The notes below the pieces were generated by a model. It did no database searches and was not told where the DNA came from. It was given only the letters and a program-made list of their open reading frames with translations. DNA of 33,353 bases from an uncultured Bacteroidales bacterium (GTDB taxonomy: Bacteria > Bacteroidota > Bacteroidia > Bacteroidales > F082), in assembly GCA_946610645.1 (NCBI GenBank), contig CAMOCK010000108.1:1-33353 (forward strand), given 5' to 3'. Shown here piece by piece: positions 14,902-31,837 of this stretch (the first letter of the stretch is position 1; the number at the start of each line of letters is the position of its first letter). The position numbers and the translations under genes are program-made.

Positions 14902-16038
14902 TCAGATATACTCCGAATAATTATTAGCGTTCACCACCGCAAATTTAGCCTCTGGATAGGCTGCGTCAAAGGCTTTTGGTGCCGATGGCGACTTCTTCCC
15001 CGACTTCATCTCAAAAGCATTCATCACGCCCGAACCAATCTCTATCAGGTCAATTTCCTGCTTGTCGTAGGTGCGCCAAAAGTGGAACTCAAGCCCAAGT
15101 CGCTCATTTTGATTGCGTTTCATTCGCTCGGTGATGATGTAGTTCTCCCAAAGTGCGCCACGGTCGGCATCGGTCCGCAACGAAAGCGGCTCGAAATTGC
15201 GGATGACCGCATTGCGAACCCCATTATCGGTAAAATACCACTTGCTCGATTTCGTGACCTCTTTCCGAAGGTTCTTGGAGAAGCCGCCCAAACGATACAA
15301 TACGAACACCTTTTGCAGCAAGTCCAAATAACGCTCGACCGTGTTCTTGCTGATTCCCAATTGTTTGCCGACCTCCTCACAGGATAGTTCGTCGCCCATT
15401 TGGTAGGCCACCAAGCGCAGCAAGTCACGAATCTTGGCCGAGTTCTTGATGCCATCCACGGCGAGGATGTCCTTCAGCAAATACGACTCCACTATATCAT
15501 TAAGGTATTCCTTTTTCTCCGCAAACGTATCCAACATAACCACCTCGGGATAGGAGCCGTAAATCAGACGCGCCTCCAAATTCCGTTTGCTCTCAATGGG
15601 CGACTCCACCGTGGCAATCTCCTGTTGTGAAAAAGGCAGCAAAACAAATTGGGTTCCACGACCTACCAATGGCTCGCCGGCTTGGTTTTTCAGGTCGAAG
15701 GAAGAGGAACCGCTCGCAATGACGCGGATGCCGGGAACTTCGTCCACGATGAGTTTCAACTTCTTCCCGATGTCGGGGATGTGTTGCGCCTCGTCGATGG
15801 CCAACAGATCCATACCTTCCAACACATGGCGATAGTTGGCAATGCTTATCGGCTCAAGCATGGCAATGGAATCTGCATCCTCGCCGTTGAGCATAAGCGA
15901 CTTGCCCTTAAACGATTGCACGATTTGCTTGAGCAGGAAAGTCTTCCCCACTCGGCGTGGTCCGAAAATCATCATGACCTTTTGTGGCTTCATGCGATCC
16001 ACCACCCGCTGTTGCAATGCCCTTTGAATCGTATCCAT
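14902..16038 (-). CDS. AAA ATPase with DUF4143-type C-terminus
   Basis: A 378-residue cytoplasmic ATPase of the AAA_14/DUF4143 kind, abundant and strain-variable in Bacteroidales. Walker A is GPRRVGKT at residues 26-33 and Walker B is LLAIDEAQ with D82-E83. A winged-helix-like segment (CEEVGKQLGISKNTVERYLDLLQ) follows near residue 225. The C-terminal domain has a PD-(D/E)xK nuclease-like pattern: E328-x-D330 and E343-x-K345 in FEMKSG. Whether it cuts nucleic acid is unknown; toxin-like, defence and mobile roles have all been suggested for such genes. Start 16038 (MDTIQRAL) is preferred because the promoter at 16059-16088 lies just upstream, inside the longer open frame. It sits between a duplicated dehydrogenase end and the intact dehydrogenase gene. 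Confidence 0.88.
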   Translation of the reverse strand: MDTIQRALQQRVVDRMKPQKVMMIFGPRRVGKTFLLKQIVQSFKGKSLMLNGEDADSIAMLEPISIANYRHVLEGMDLLAIDEAQHIPDIGKKLKLIVDEVPGIRVIASGSSSFDLKNQAGEPLVGRGTQFVLLPFSQQEIATVESPIESKRNLEARLIYGSYPEVVMLDTFAEKKEYLNDIVESYLLKDILAVDGIKNSAKIRDLLRLVAYQMGDELSCEEVGKQLGISKNTVERYLDLLQKVFVLYRLGGFSKNLRKEVTKSSKWYFTDNGVRNAVIRNFEPLSLRTDADRGALWENYIITERMKRNQNERLGLEFHFWRTYDKQEIDLIEIGSGVMNAFEMKSGKKSPSAPKAFDAAYPEAKFAVVNANNYSEYI

Positions 16039-19527: not shown

Positions 19528-19547
19528 CGGCATCAAATCCATGCAAG

Positions 19548-20966
19548 ATGATTATCGGAAGAACCAAAGAAAAGGAAAAGATGATACGGGCGTATCAGTC
19601 TGAGTATTCGCAATTTGTAACTGTTTATGGCCGTCGTCGCGTAGGCAAAACCTTTTTTGTCAAGGAAACTTTCGGCTATAAATTCACCTTCGAGCACGCA
19701 GGATTGGCGCGCACCGGCATGAAAGGGCAGTTGGCCGCATGGAAATCGTCGCTCCACGACGCGGGCGTGGCCAAGCCTAAACTCCCCAAAAACTGGCTCG
19801 ACGCCTTCGACATGCTCAAAGAGCTCATCAAGGCCTCCGACGAGAAAAAAAAAGTCATCTTCATCGACGAAATGCCTTGGATGGACACTTTGCACTCCGG
19901 ATTCATCCCGGCATTGGAACACTTTTGGAACGGCTGGGCCTCGGGACGGAAAGACATCTTGCTAATCGTTTGTGGTTCAGCCACTTCATGGATTATCAAC
20001 AAACTCATCAAGAACCATGGCGGACTGCGGGGCCGCATCACGGCGAAAATCTTCATCCAGCCTTTCACCTTGGCGGAATGCGAGCGTTATGCCAAAGCCT
20101 TCAAGTTGGGCATGAGCCGAAGGCAAATCGTTGAAGCTTACATGGTTATGGGTGGCATACCTTTCTATTGGTCCTATCTCGACAGGACAAAGAGCCTCGC
20201 GCAAAACATTGACGACTTGGTTTTCAACCCCAATGGCGAACTTTACGACGAGTTTGACGCGCTTTATGCCTCACTGTTCAAAAACCCCGAGGCCTACGTC
20301 CAAGCCATCACCATCCTTGGGAAAAAGAAGGCCGGCATGACTCGTGAGGAGTTGATCAAAGAAGGCATGGACGACAACGGTAAACTCACTAAAATCCTCG
20401 CCGAACTCGAATATTGCGGCTTCATCAGGAAATACAACACTATCGGCTTCAAGAAGAAAAACGCTGTTTTTCAATTGATTGACTCATACACCTTGTTCTA
20501 TTTCAAGTTCATCGCGGAGAACTCGCGCGGCGACAAGCATTTTTGGTCTGTCAATCAAAACACGCCACTGTATTACAATTGGTGCGGCTTGGCTTTCGAG
20601 CGGGTTTGTTTCGCCCACGAGGAGCAAATCCTTCAGGCTTTGGGCATTTCGGGCGTTTCGACTGTTTTCTACTCGTGGCGGACAACGGCAGACGAAAACA
20701 CAGAATCGGGGGCGCAAATCGACTTGGTCATCGACCGCACCGATGGGGTCATCAACCTTTGCGAAATCAAGTTCACGAAAGAGCCATTCGCGGTAAATGC
20801 CGACGACGAGGACAATTTGGAAACCAAAATCGCCCGTCTTTCCGAAGAAACCCGAACCGACAAGGCCATTCATTTGGTGCTGATTTCAGCCAAAGGATTG
20901 AAGAAAAACGAATATTCAAGTATCTTCCAGAATATCATCACTTTAGAAGATTTATTCAAAGCATAA
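19548..20966 (+). CDS. Archaeal-type AAA ATPase with DUF234-like C-terminus
   Basis: A 472-residue ATPase of the STAND/MNS-like group (archaeal ATPase plus DUF234). It opens with IIGRTKEKEKMIRAYQSE, Walker A is GRRRVGKT (residues 28-35) and Walker B is VIFIDEMPW (D107-E108), with a sensor-like LLIVCGSATSW after it. A winged-helix stretch (MTREELIKEGMDDNGKLTKILAELEYCGFI) precedes a C-terminal PD-(D/E)xK-like domain: D392 in GAQIDLVIDR and E406-x-K408 in CEIKF. Start 19548 is preferred since it begins at the conserved IIGR and follows a -7 element; the longer frame would run through the 45-bp hairpin repeat. The gene is bounded by identical 45-bp repeats. Function unproven; nuclease or defence-related activity is possible. 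Confidence 0.88.
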   Translation: MIIGRTKEKEKMIRAYQSEYSQFVTVYGRRRVGKTFFVKETFGYKFTFEHAGLARTGMKGQLAAWKSSLHDAGVAKPKLPKNWLDAFDMLKELIKASDEKKKVIFIDEMPWMDTLHSGFIPALEHFWNGWASGRKDILLIVCGSATSWIINKLIKNHGGLRGRITAKIFIQPFTLAECERYAKAFKLGMSRRQIVEAYMVMGGIPFYWSYLDRTKSLAQNIDDLVFNPNGELYDEFDALYASLFKNPEAYVQAITILGKKKAGMTREELIKEGMDDNGKLTKILAELEYCGFIRKYNTIGFKKKNAVFQLIDSYTLFYFKFIAENSRGDKHFWSVNQNTPLYYNWCGLAFERVCFAHEEQILQALGISGVSTVFYSWRTTADENTESGAQIDLVIDRTDGVINLCEIKFTKEPFAVNADDEDNLETKIARLSEETRTDKAIHLVLISAKGLKKNEYSSIFQNIITLEDLFKA

Positions 20967-20985
20967 TCCTCCAAAAAACAGCCCT

Positions 20986-21030
20986 CAACTCTGCGGAAAG
21001 TGCTTTTTTTTGATAGATTCCGCAGAGTTG
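20986..21030. repeat. 45-bp direct repeat, right copy (hairpin) flanking the 19548 ATPase
   Basis: Perfect copy of 19461-19505, beginning 20 bp after the ATPase stop. It may also serve as the ATPase's transcription terminator, although its T run lies in the loop rather than after the stem. Confidence 0.9.
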
Positions 21031-21107
21031 GAGTATGTATTTTGGTTCATAACAGATAGAAAAACAAGTTTTTTTCCAAAAACCAAAGCACAGTTTCAAA
21101 AACAATG

Positions 21108-21115
21108 TAATTTTG
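21108..21115 (+). promoter_or_regulatory. Probable -7 element for the leader/HTH gene
   Basis: TAATTTTG fits TAnnTTTG. No TTG at the usual -33 distance. Transcription would start near 21122, at the beginning of the folded leader. Confidence 0.5.
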
Positions 21116-21117
21116 CA

Positions 21118-21395
21118 CCGTCAACCCGCCGAAGCCTCTGACGGGACAGCGGACGGGTGACAAACATTTTGAGAAGACGTTAGACTGACGTTTTATCTGC
21201 GGCTTGTTCGAATCTCGCAAATTCAATTCGTTCGCATGGTAAAGCAATGGCTGGCGTCCATGGCATCGTTGACACCTTATATATATTGTGTCAACGAGGG
21301 CGTGGGCTTCGGTATTGCTTATCTTCGAACGAAGGGCAATGCGAGAGCCTGAACAAGCGGGATAAGCAAAGACAGGATTCCCGCGCTTTTTCTTT
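21118..21395 (+). ncRNA. Candidate structured leader or small RNA with intrinsic terminator
   Basis: No gene is seen in 20967-21471; this part folds strongly. Four nested pairings occur in order: 21193-21219 with 21340-21369 (GCTTGTTC/GAACAAGC core, imperfect), 21227-21234 with 21326-21333 (TTCGTTCG/CGAACGAA), 21243-21249 with 21314-21320 (AAGCAAT/ATTGCTT) and an apical hairpin 21268-21276/21289-21297 (CGTTGACAC/GTGTCAACG). An alternative hairpin GCGGGA (21357-21362)/TCCCGC (21379-21384) is followed by TTTTTCTTT (21387-21395), a terminator that shares bases with the outer stem. A further hairpin TCGGCA/TGCCGA (21425-21446) precedes the HTH gene. This is either an attenuated leader of the HTH gene or an independent small RNA. 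Identity inferred only from pairing seen by eye. Confidence 0.45.
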
Positions 21396-21471
21396 ATGTT
21401 CCAACGAAACAAGACGACAAAACCTCGGCATCTGGGAGTCTGCCGATAAGGAAAAGAAGGACGGTCCAAAC

Positions 21472-21723
21472 ATGAACGACATCCATTTCGGCAATATGAT
21501 TCTCCGCGAATTGCGCAAGCAACGCTATAGCGTGTCATGGTTTGCAAAAGAGATGGGCAGCGACCGCAGCAACATGTACAAGCTATTGGCCCGCCCGCAC
21601 CTCAACACGGATTTTGTGCTTCGAGCCTCGCGCTTGCTCCGTCATGATTTTTTTGGCGAAGCCTCAACCCAATTACTTGACAAGTCCTGTGCTTGTGGTG
21701 AAAACAACAACATCTTGTGGTGA
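21472..21723 (+). CDS. Small HTH DNA-binding protein
   Basis: An 83-residue protein of a type common in Bacteroidales: after HFGNMILRELRKQ, the segment YSVSWFAKEMGSDRSNMYKL reads as an XRE-like helix-turn-helix, followed by LLARPHLNTDFVLRASRLL and RHDFFGEAS. The remaining tail (CACGENNNILW) is short. It probably binds DNA as a dimer and regulates transcription; the target is unknown. ATG 21472 is chosen because the conserved-looking fold begins there, whereas the open frame extending upstream crosses the structured leader and has no protein-like character. The 350-nt leader upstream suggests control by attenuation. A lipoprotein gene follows with its own promoter. Confidence 0.75.
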   Translation: MNDIHFGNMILRELRKQRYSVSWFAKEMGSDRSNMYKLLARPHLNTDFVLRASRLLRHDFFGEASTQLLDKSCACGENNNILW

Positions 21724-21743
21724 AAGTAACAACAAGGAATAGG

Positions 21744-21773
21744 TTGGTTTTTAAGAGATTAGTCGTTACTTTG
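21744..21773 (+). promoter_or_regulatory. Promoter for the 21827 lipoprotein
   Basis: TTG (21744-21746) and TTACTTTG (21766-21773) are 19 nt apart; the -7 box deviates from TAnnTTTG at one position. The leader is about 45 nt. Confidence 0.55.
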
Positions 21774-21826
21774 CTTAATCTAACTACAAAAAAAGAAAAA
21801 ATCGTAACACATTAAAATTCAAGACT

Positions 21827-22669
21827 ATGAAACAAATTTACAAAAATCTCGCACTGCTCGTCATGCTGGGAGCGGCCCTTGTCGGATGTAGCAAGAAAGT
21901 GGACAACCCAAAACCGAGCGTTAAGGCGATTTCGGGCAATGGATTCGTGTCCGACTCAAAAAAAATAAAGCCCAACACCACAGTCAAGTTTGGCTTTGAT
22001 GCGGCCAGCAATGCACAAACCAACCAAAGCCTTTCCAAATTCAGGGTTTTCATCTCTGGAGAGCCTAACACCAACACCGTGATTTACGACACCGTCTTCA
22101 CGTTGAACGATGAAAAGACTTTCCATTTTGAAGGTGAATTCACCTTTGCGGAGCTTGGAAGATGGCAAATCGTGGGTCGCGCTTTCGATGCCGCTGGCGA
22201 GGAAGGTTCGGAGTACATTGATATTACAGTGCTGATGGAAAACTCCTTCACATGGAAAAAAGCAGGCGGCACGCTGACAGGCTTCGGCGAATATGGCTTG
22301 ATTTGGGACGAAGGCTTTGCACAAGACACCATTTGCCTGACCCCTGCTGACACCATGACGACAGTACTTCTGAAACTCTCCACTACAGAGTGGAACAACA
22401 TCTACACAGAAGCCCACAAGAGGTTGCTTTTCAACGACATCAGAAAGAACTACAACAAAGAAGACCAAACCAAGAACGAATACAAAAAGTACGAGATAGA
22501 AACTTATAAAGGCATTTTGACCAAAAAGGAAACAGCCACCTACAACGATGTGCTTGTTGTGTATAACAAGGACGACGACGAGAAAAACCTTCTGCTTTAC
22601 ATCAACAATTCCTATGCGGAGGACTACAACGGCCAGTTGTATCTGACGGTACACGGGAAACTGAAATAA
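21827..22669 (+). CDS. Predicted lipoprotein, unknown function
   Basis: A 280-residue exported protein with a clear lipoprotein signal: MKQIYKNLALLVMLGAALVGC, lipobox LVGC with Cys21. Residues of about 30-130 have an Ig/PKD-like beta pattern (TVKFGFDAAS, FRVFISGEP, FHFEGEFTFAELGRWQIVGRAFDAAGEEGSEYIDITV), which is often found in outer-membrane-anchored surface proteins. The second half (FTWKKAGGTLTGFGEYGLIWD onward) is rich in Lys, Glu and Tyr with no family I recognise. It has its own promoter and is followed by a hairpin, so it is probably transcribed alone. Confidence 0.82.
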   Translation: MKQIYKNLALLVMLGAALVGCSKKVDNPKPSVKAISGNGFVSDSKKIKPNTTVKFGFDAASNAQTNQSLSKFRVFISGEPNTNTVIYDTVFTLNDEKTFHFEGEFTFAELGRWQIVGRAFDAAGEEGSEYIDITVLMENSFTWKKAGGTLTGFGEYGLIWDEGFAQDTICLTPADTMTTVLLKLSTTEWNNIYTEAHKRLLFNDIRKNYNKEDQTKNEYKKYEIETYKGILTKKETATYNDVLVVYNKDDDEKNLLLYINNSYAEDYNGQLYLTVHGKLK

Positions 22670-26617: not shown

Positions 26618-26623
26618 GTCTTG

Positions 26624-26695
26624 TAGCCCCACTAGGACTCGAACCTAGATTTAAAGTTTAGGAAACTTCCGTTCTATCCCTTGAACTATGAGGCC
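26624..26695 (-). tRNA. tRNA-Arg (anticodon CCT)
   Basis: A 72-nt gene folds into a full cloverleaf: acceptor GGCCTCA/TGGGGCT (with G-T pairs), D stem GTTC/GAAC, anticodon stem GAAGT/ACTTT with loop TTCCTAA, variable loop of 4, and T arm CTAGG-TTCGAGT-CCTAG, then discriminator A. The anticodon is CCT (complement of 26660-26662), reading AGG arginine codons. CCA is not encoded, as usual in this phylum. Confidence 0.95.
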
Positions 26696-30440: not shown

Positions 30441-31837
30441 CACGAGCGGTCGAAAGATGAAAAGTGTCAAGTCCTAATGTGGTAGCGTGAGGTGAAGCTT
30501 TCGACATCACCGCCACTGAAGTAGACAGCCAAAGCAGTGACCCAATCGTTCATCTCCGTTCGGAAGCAGAACTTGGCCATGTCGTATCCCATCCCGTTCT
30601 CGCGCTTGTAAATCATTATCAGCATGGCGGTTATCAGTGTCATGTAGAGGATGATTTTTATGCCGTTTTCGCTTACCGAGAGGAAGTGGGAGAAGTTGAG
30701 TTCCTGCTTGAGGAAACGGAAGAACGCCTCGATGTCCCACCTGCGGCGGTAGGCCTCGGCGACTTCCTGCGGAGTGAGTCCGAAGTCGTTCGTGATGAAG
30801 TATATGTCGTTCTCCACCCGCTTCACCCTCCCCTTGTTGGCAGGCCTGGTGGTGTCCCTCGGCTCCTTGAACCGGGCCTTGACCACGCGGAAGGTCCGTT
30901 TCGTCTTCTCCTTCGTCTTGGTGTACAGCCGTACCTCGATATCGTCGACCAGTTCCAGTCTCCCCAGATCCTTGTCGCCTCCCTCTTCCATCAGGTTCCT
31001 GACAACCTCCATGCCCCTGTTCGTCTTGATTCTCCCCACGAACTTCGCCTCCGAGTCGGACATCGCCTCGAAGCTTGCCGAAGAGGCCAGACCCCTATCC
31101 ATCACATACAGGTTTCTGTGCCTGGCATCGGCCTTTACCAACGCGTCCAACACTGCTGGCATGGCAACATCCTCGCTCACGAATTTCGGTTCGTCGAACA
31201 CCTCCGCCAGCTTCGCCGCGAAGCCGTCGTAGGCCACCGTGTACTTCAGCTGCTTCCGGTCTTCACGCCCCTTCGCCTTCTTCCCTATCGTGAAGCCTTT
31301 CTTGAGCTTGTTGCACGCCTCGGCTACCATCGAGCTGTCGACCCTGATGAGGTACATCTGGCCTATCTCGCGCTCCGTGTACAATTCCGACAGCCTGCCA
31401 TATATCAGGCCGTATGCCTTCTCAAAAAATGACACGTCCATCTTGGAAAGCCGTGTCGAGATCGAGCTCCTTGACACGGTCAGGCATTCTGCGTAGTTGA
31501 ACATCGCCTTGAACTGCTGGCTGTTGAACATCACCTCGAGCCTCCGCTGGCTCATCCTGTCCGTGTTGACGAAGGCGTACAGAAGCAGGTTGAACATCCG
31601 TTCCCCGCTCAACACTTTGCTGTAATAGTCCACATGGGTCTCCCTTGCAAGTCGTGAGAGATCCTCGTCTGGTATCATCCGCACCAATTCCTGCGCATGT
31701 AGCTTAATCTTGTCTAATATCATGCTGTTGGTTTTTCCCTTTCAACGGCATGATCCCTCTTTTAGTATTAATCGGCTGTATCGTTTATCTCTTTTTTTGT
31801 ATTTTTGGTACTTTTGCATGTCTTTCGACCGCTCGTG
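30441..31837 (-). mobile_element. Complete IS4-like insertion sequence (1,397 bp)
   Basis: Both ends start with the same 17 bp, CACGAGCGGTCGAAAGA, in inverted orientation, and the similarity continues with small gaps for another ~15 bp. The element is flanked by the 9-bp direct repeat ATTGCAGAT and encodes one intact transposase, so it looks recently inserted and possibly active. The empty target reads as a short palindrome, CTTCCGAA-TTGCAGA-TTCGGAAG. Confidence 0.92.
30467..31723 (-). CDS. IS4-family DDE transposase
   Basis: A 418-residue transposase. The N-terminal domain (residues 1-120) is helical with an HTH-like region around SRSSISTRLSKMD. The RNase-H-like catalytic core has D129 in IRVDSSMV, D209 in YVMDRGLASS and E332, with the IS4 signature Y325-x2-R328-x3-E332-x6-K339 in YRRRWDIEAFFRFLK. 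The beta-strand-rich insertion between the second Asp and the Glu (FVGRIKTNRG to KRVENDIYFITND) is typical of this group. The frame is intact and ends 26 bp from the left end of the element; the start is 114 bp from the right end. It is in the same orientation as the interrupted gene. Confidence 0.93.
   Translation of the reverse strand: MILDKIKLHAQELVRMIPDEDLSRLARETHVDYYSKVLSGERMFNLLLYAFVNTDRMSQRRLEVMFNSQQFKAMFNYAECLTVSRSSISTRLSKMDVSFFEKAYGLIYGRLSELYTEREIGQMYLIRVDSSMVAEACNKLKKGFTIGKKAKGREDRKQLKYTVAYDGFAAKLAEVFDEPKFVSEDVAMPAVLDALVKADARHRNLYVMDRGLASSASFEAMSDSEAKFVGRIKTNRGMEVVRNLMEEGGDKDLGRLELVDDIEVRLYTKTKEKTKRTFRVVKARFKEPRDTTRPANKGRVKRVENDIYFITNDFGLTPQEVAEAYRRRWDIEAFFRFLKQELNFSHFLSVSENGIKIILYMTLITAMLIMIYKRENGMGYDMAKFCFRTEMNDWVTALAVYFSGGDVESFTSRYHIRT

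Follow-up and report, generated by a model that had tools for sequence, protein, structure and literature searches.

T-box leaders are long leaders with an alternative terminator and antiterminator, and riboswitches and attenuators in general combine a position 5' of a gene with a conserved core, mutually exclusive folds and a terminator-like stem followed by a U-tract, with unrelated genes behind. Bacteroidota dominate many guts, and to our knowledge few of their regulatory RNAs are understood. The Bacteroidales leader described here has all of these general features of riboswitches and attenuators, but differs from them in that it has no known ligand or leader peptide, that two of its loops pair with each other, and that a hairpin past the U-tract tracks the terminator arm. 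With T-box leaders it shares the length and the alternative terminator and antiterminator, but it is without any Rfam match and the genes behind it are not of one amino-acid kind.

Three published surveys come close to this leader in subject. Fremin and Bhatt 2021 (PMC8040213) reported 15 candidate structured RNAs within 25 bp of HTH_XRE genes from human microbiomes; in the passages covered, their examples measure 38–132 bp and show no two-state or kissing fold, and pieces of our leader family could be among these candidates. The study of Flavobacterium psychrophilum (PMC9723704) gives 64 structured 5' regions, some of them without an Rfam match, and the examples named in the passages covered precede pheA, hisG, ftsY, acsA, alaS and rimP, which sets them apart from our leader by description rather than by sequence. 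The transcriptome map of Bacteroides thetaiotaomicron (PMC7366714) catalogues long 5' UTRs, sRNAs and riboswitches in a member of the Bacteroidales, and its passages covered here contain no leader like ours, again compared by description and not by sequence. In the titles and abstract openings of the literature covered, no description of the leader was found. Searching Rfam 15, as the earlier note on this DNA had suggested, detected no family that matches the element at gathering scores, either in its own locus or in 40 further loci, and a permissive search gave matches to the element only far below the family thresholds. The guess in the earlier note that no Bacteroidales motif of such architecture had been described holds for Rfam 15 and the literature covered.

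The window, i.e., the whole stretch of 33,353 nucleotides that was analysed, is a contig of an uncultured Bacteroidales bacterium (CAMOCK010000108.1). The earlier note, made from the sequence alone, had pointed to a nested hairpin with an overlapping terminator ahead of a small HTH gene and regarded it as a candidate attenuator or small RNA. In our reading, the RNA is probably a pseudoknotted, bistable cis-regulatory leader, either an attenuator or riboswitch-like, which would switch gene expression. The locus is composed of the following parts:

21108..21115, + strand: promoter −7 box TAATTTTG of the TAnnTTTG type, read from the sequence
21120..21161, + strand: P0, a variable 5' hairpin (GTCA...TGAC) located where transcription is expected to begin; the fold of 21118-21162 reaches −19.9 kcal/mol
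21158..21404, + strand: conserved core of the leader RNA, matched by covariance model R1 with 249 bits
21357..21395, + strand: terminator-like stem T (21357-21362/21379-21384) and U-tract 21387-21395; 93.2% paired, 4/4 pairs double-changed
21426..21445, + strand: hairpin D, with a loop GGGAGUC (21434-21440) complementary to 21376-21382
21472..21723, + strand: gene for a small HTH-type protein of 83 aa, a candidate HTH judging from relatives and predicted structure
21827..22669, + strand: gene for an exported lipoprotein behind the HTH gene, predicted from the sequence

TAnnTTTG is the −7 box of Bacteroidota promoters, and TAATTTTG at 21108-21115 is of this type; its position fits a transcription start predicted near 21122. 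Of 129 copies, 88 had such a box 25–95 nt ahead of the RNA, as compared to 8 of 320 control windows. The arms of P0 matched better within the same copy than after swapping between copies (0 of 2000 permutations, n = 89). Further upstream, directly after an AAA ATPase gene (19530-20966, + strand), a 28-nt inverted repeat with T-runs at 20971-21045 looks like a terminator parting this gene from the promoter of the leader. The window contains a second AAA ATPase gene at 14905-16038 on the − strand, and one of the two carries DUF4143.

At its energy minimum (−114.3 kcal/mol), the stretch 21118-21410 contains, in the order in which the earlier note had proposed them, all four nested pairings (21193-21219/21340-21369; 21227-21234/21326-21333; 21243-21249/21314-21320; 21268-21276/21289-21297). 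Its stability far exceeds that of 200 dinucleotide shuffles, none of which came up to it (mean −83.9, standard deviation 4.95; observed z −6.14). The proposed alternative pairing of GCGGGA with TCCCGC to a terminator was likewise recovered without mismatch at 21357-21362/21379-21384, with the U-tract TTTTTCTTT (21387-21395) directly after it; across the copies, the tract has a median of 9 U per 16 nt. A simple terminator scan did not list this stem, whose loop of 16 nt exceeds the limit of 8 set in the scan. The stem appeared in the energy folds of only 9 of 64 homologues; the terminator reading rests on the covariation of its four pairs together with the U-tract.

To compare homologues, DNA searches and covariance models were used. 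The genome of the window holds three copies by DNA search, the other two being 71 and 73% identical to the window, and 53 of 99 genus genomes gave matches. An alignment of 32 copies including their flanks revealed a shared order: a promoter box is followed by the variable hairpin, the core, the stem with its U-tract, D in most copies, and then a gene. Covariance model R1, which was built from these copies and comprises 63 pairs, 24 of them with double changes, gave at least 215 matches in at least 75 of the 99 genus genomes (21 candidates scored per genome; the weak matches include copies of the compact relative described below). In a sample of the order, it matched 75 of 393 genomes, with matches in 42 of 206 genera (five candidates scored per genome). 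In a sample of the phylum, matches were confined to 3 of 395 genomes: that of the window itself, a second from its order and a third from its phylum. Scanning named genomes for a pattern added 71 loci, mostly from Bacteroidales or Bacteroidia MAGs and many of them from ruminant guts; one locus (L124) came from an Erysipelotrichaceae MAG, and the locus of Candidatus Limimorpha caballi contains a stretch of 1600 nt identical to a genome (G061) of the genus of the window.

For covariation analysis, we used a set of 64 sequences consisting of the window, the two other copies of its genome, 60 copies from the order and one from the phylum search. Two folds were scored, the one proposed in the earlier note (first fold) and a second one made up of P9, Palt, P7, P8 and kissing hairpins. 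The helices of the core are:

21163..21400, + strand: P1, closing stem (21163-21167/21396-21400); helix-scan z 10.6, 84% of cells paired, 5/5 pairs double-changed
21175..21193, + strand: P2, hairpin of the first fold (21175-21180/21188-21193); helix-scan z 4.3, 96.1% paired
21176..21258, + strand: P9 of the second fold, which excludes P2 (21176-21183/21251-21258); helix-scan z 6.5, 87–93% paired
21192..21243, + strand: Palt of the second fold, which competes with P6 (21192-21199/21235-21243); 73–83% paired
21202..21358, + strand: P3 (21202-21208/21352-21358; 21202-21209/21351-21358 in the fold of the window); helix-scan z 24, 98.8% paired, 7/7 pairs double-changed
21210..21224, + strand: hairpin H (GAAU/AUUC), with a loop that pairs with the K loop; helix-scan z 6.4 for the stem
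21227..21333, + strand: P5 (21227-21234/21326-21333); helix-scan z 28, 8/8 pairs double-changed
21244..21318, + strand: P6 of the first fold (21244-21249/21313-21318); mostly invariant, weak covariation with helix-scan z 3.1–4.0
21256..21307, + strand: P8' (21256-21262/21301-21307), beneath a variable apical hairpin (21268-21297); helix-scan z 8.4
21300..21386, + strand: P8 of the second fold, which occupies the terminator 3' arm (21300-21306/21380-21386); own-versus-swapped z 8.0
21316..21368, + strand: P7 of the second fold, which occupies the terminator 5' arm (21316-21324/21360-21368); 96.4% paired
21335..21349, + strand: hairpin K (GGC/GCC), kissing partner of H, with a nearly invariant stem; own-versus-swapped z 4.8

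The earlier note had named missing compensatory changes among homologous leaders as evidence against its proposal, and such changes proved abundant. In the first fold, to which the alignment was fitted, 95.4% of the cells were paired and 43 of 50 pairs double-changed; in the second fold, whose helices except P1 lie outside the covariance model (as does D), the values were 88.7% and 30 of 44 pairs. None of 500 shuffles came as high in either case, and pairing in slid controls went down to 31–53%. A scan for helices over column pairs (effective number 57 at 80% identity) gave high values, from z 28 down to 6.3, for P5, P3, P1, H-K, P8', P7, P9, H and T; those for Palt, P2 and P6 were lower, from z 4.8 down to 3.1. 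The loop-loop pairing of H and K (21213-21219/21340-21346) reached z 9.5 with 99.6% paired, and the K stem was 97.9% paired with a double change in one of three pairs. Palt gave z 4.8 and 3.3 in the helix scan and z 13 when own and swapped partners were compared, and P7, which is absent from the model, gave z 7.0 and 5.0 with five of nine pairs double-changed. P8 was 88–93% paired with double changes in three of seven pairs and did not appear in the helix-scan list for the column pairs of the 64 sequences, and P6 is weakly tested because it is mostly invariant. Swapping partners between sequences lowered complementarity in 13 of 13 helices and in D, and none of 2000 permutations reached the observed mean, while the same statistic on an upstream control stretch gave z 0.6; these permutations ignore ancestry, and relatedness inflates the partner-swap test.

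Some columns covary with two partners, namely 21250-21254 with 21180-21184 or 21309-21313, 21358-21364 with the terminator arm or P7, and further ones at about 21235-21240. T and P7 covary on shared columns, and the mutually exclusive terminator and antiterminator helices of an attenuator are both conserved, although T is formed in only 9 of 64 energy folds and P8 is missing from the helix-scan list. The compensatory changes keep the pairing as in a conserved structured RNA family. The idea of mutually exclusive folds in the earlier note stands in so far as there are two covarying helix sets, but the competitor of the terminator is the second fold, which that note did not describe. The sequences argue strongly for a conserved structure and for two competing helix sets.

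Parts of the leader were predicted to fold differently from the whole. When cut out of the window, segment 21170-21260 adopted P9-Palt-H (−25.7 kcal/mol) and segment 21296-21390 adopted P8-P7-K (−38.4 kcal/mol), whereas 21118-21395 gave the long arm of the earlier note (−112.8 kcal/mol). With half of the pairs required for a helix to be counted, P9 was obtained in 60 and Palt in 51 of the 64 isolated 5' domains, and P7 in 43 and P8 in 31 of the 64 isolated 3' domains, all by energy folding without a shuffled control. Among the full-length folds of the same homologues, P3 was formed in 61, P5 in 62, P6 in 59 and T in 9, as compared to one for P9, two for Palt and none for P7 or P8. Such a difference would be expected of a leader that folds in one way early and in another way late. 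We favour a bistable leader because both folds covary in the 64 sequences, with some columns having two partners, and because parts and whole fold differently across the homologues. During transcription, the 5' half would fold first as P9-Palt-H, and as the 3' half emerges, a signal (a ligand, a protein or the speed of transcription) would select the fold. If P7 and P8 are formed, both terminator arms would be occupied and the gene transcribed; if the long P3-P5-P6 arm is formed, the terminator would be freed and transcription would stop ahead of the gene. Which of the folds represents the ON state is a guess, because P8 is missing from the helix-scan list, stops at this U-tract too and might act as a terminator of its own. 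Further points against the bistable leader are the small share of energy folds with T (9 of 64) and the compact relatives described below, whose helix list does not include P7.

A single, static pseudoknotted structure is conceivable as well, because P3, P5 and H-K fit either helix set. The leader would then bind a protein or RNA polymerase through an H-K kiss braced by P3, P5, Palt and P7, e.g., as a processive antitermination or mRNA-stability element, and the remaining complementarities would be by-products. P3, P5, H-K, Palt and P7 have no bases in common and might be formed side by side, the compact relatives support P3, P5, H-K, Palt, H and P8', and the diversity of the downstream genes agrees with this reading as well. 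We nevertheless regard it as rather unlikely, since P9 and P2 share bases, as do P6 and Palt or P7, each with some covariation, and since most homologues fold differently as parts and as a whole.

The element extends past the U-tract to D, beyond the hairpin noticed originally. The stem of D varies, and its loop follows changes in the terminator 3' arm, as illustrated by GGAGCC with GGCUCC in L191 and GGGGUUUU with AAAACC in L214; the comparison of own and swapped arms gave z 8.8 (z 0.6 for the upstream control). By a strict rule demanding a stem and a 6-nt match, D was present in 36 of 63 copies, as compared to 397 of 1239 swapped arms (32%) and 49 of 252 windows further downstream (19%); it is common, not universal. 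In the read-through mRNA of a bistable leader, the D loop could pair with the terminator 3' arm.

These data also bear on the second option of the earlier note, a small RNA of about 275 nt, which would then stand alone and act in trans with the gene behind it as a bystander. Its own promoter box and terminator-like end and the several paralogues per genome would suit such an RNA, but D lies past its end and covaries with it, and a terminated small RNA would have no need of D. Moreover, same-strand frames of at least 150 aa starting within 320 nt behind the RNA are commoner (51 of 63 copies) than in the opposite-strand upstream control (26 of 63), and in two compact copies (L284 and L288) the U-tract runs directly into the start codon, where the same switch might act on translation. 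We consider this option quite improbable and favour a cis-acting leader because of the order of promoter, RNA and gene, the position of D past the U-tract, and the enrichment of exported-like genes behind the RNA.

The RNA lies between the promoter box and a gene on the same strand, and a same-strand frame of at least 60 aa follows in 129 of 131 copies, with a median start 59 nt past the model end, which says little because the control has such frames in 50 of 63 cases. The 131 copies exclude three that are cut by locus ends (L073, L111 and L128) and the duplicate L005, and count at least one locus twice (L082 = L179). Exported-like proteins, as defined by a home-made hydrophobicity rule and a home-made choice of reading frames, made up 79 of 129 downstream proteins as compared to 105 of 294 other frames (at least 150 aa, genus-level loci only; Fisher p 1.4e-6). 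Among the 25 of 71 Pfam families listed for these proteins, there were ten BspA-type LRR, three BACON and three Por secretion tails, the rest being scattered, and among the 25 of 134 PADLOC models listed, none matched more than two of the 129 proteins. The genes controlled by the leader would mainly code for exported proteins and small HTH regulators.

The HTH protein of the window gave no Pfam match and nothing above the cut-offs in NCBIfam and PDB sequence searches; eight of 19 relatives match HTH_35 and others Cro/C1-type models, all weakly, and AlphaFold2 predicted five helices (pLDDT 87.4). The lipoprotein gene at 21827-22669 is perhaps part of the same unit, and a protein judged similar by eye is encoded behind the HTH gene at L072. 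The HTH gene emphasised in the earlier note is not typical for the class of the window, where a similar protein follows only 7 of 129 copies and many copies precede exported proteins, but it is typical for a compact, diverged RNA which was recognised by eye upstream of HTH paralogues of the genus (10 of 29 loci) and is in part weakly matched by R1. There, 29 of 31 copies from the genus precede an HTH-like frame, another (L273) starts such a frame where the contig ends, and L241 is without one. Among 50 compact copies taken best-scoring first, 34 had an HTH-like frame by rule, one of them (L286) as a chance motif. Those in other families are mostly located ahead of exported or other proteins, a few of the wider class ahead of TonB-receptor-like or sigma-factor-like proteins, as judged by eye.

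Model R2, built from nine compact copies (the compact set does not include L244), did not match the window. It detected 96 of 99 genus genomes, with up to 18 matches per genome; in the order, it matched 44 of 149 genomes, and in the phylum 24 of 296, of which 23 are in other families of the class. Of the two models, only R2 reaches further in the phylum than the 3 of 395 genomes of R1, and counts per class are not clean because weak R1 and R2 matches overlap (e.g., G232:C31). A scan of 76 compact sequences in a plain MAFFT alignment supported P3, H-K, P5, Palt, H and P8'; P7 was not found in this list and P8 at most by weak overlap, and by eye the genus copies lack D as well as a separate 5' arm of the terminator, which also speaks against the bistable reading. 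At L280 (G168:C706), a tandem pair of compact copies precedes one gene. Several compact copies (L289, L290, L291 and L293 of G177; L302 and L304 of G051) are located 200–300 nt from a contig end with the upstream side outward, and the four from G177 have similar sequence upstream of the RNA, i.e., repeated promoter regions. One RNA copy (L238, 542-564) resides on an IMG/VR viral contig of 85.7 kb.

Many copies per genome, several of them close to contig ends in fragmented genomes, and the similar upstream sequence of the four G177 copies could also point to a part of a mobile element, such as a repeat or a transposon-borne guide RNA. We regard this as very improbable: the copies read have no common protein behind them except for the HTH genes of the compact class, they vary in P3, P5 and the loops, blastn of the core of the window against plasmid and phage records gave no match, and IMG/VR contributed one contig with one pattern.

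Beyond the bistable leader itself, we tentatively suggest an unrecognised riboswitch-like switch of class or phylum scale, by which one common signal would set surface proteins and small HTH regulators; two large hairpin loops, with the stems Palt and P7 closed, would pair at three places (P3, the H-K kiss and P5). With several copies per genome, a class-wide spread and a frequent position before exported proteins or regulators, the family could be among the larger RNA regulons of Bacteroidota, and a two-loop fold with three joint pairings would be of interest to work on RNA structure.

A type III toxin-antitoxin RNA was rejected as an assignment, since the element contains no direct repeat in place of the expected tandem repeats. 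The sole direct repeat found within 20900-21900 consists of two 21-nt units (CTTGTGGTGAAAACAACAACA) with a start-to-start spacing of 22 nt (21692-21734) at the end of the HTH gene. Elsewhere, the window carries a DDE transposase gene (30470-31723, − strand) and a tRNA-Arg gene with anticodon CCT (26623-26695, − strand), which was also matched as tRNA by Rfam.
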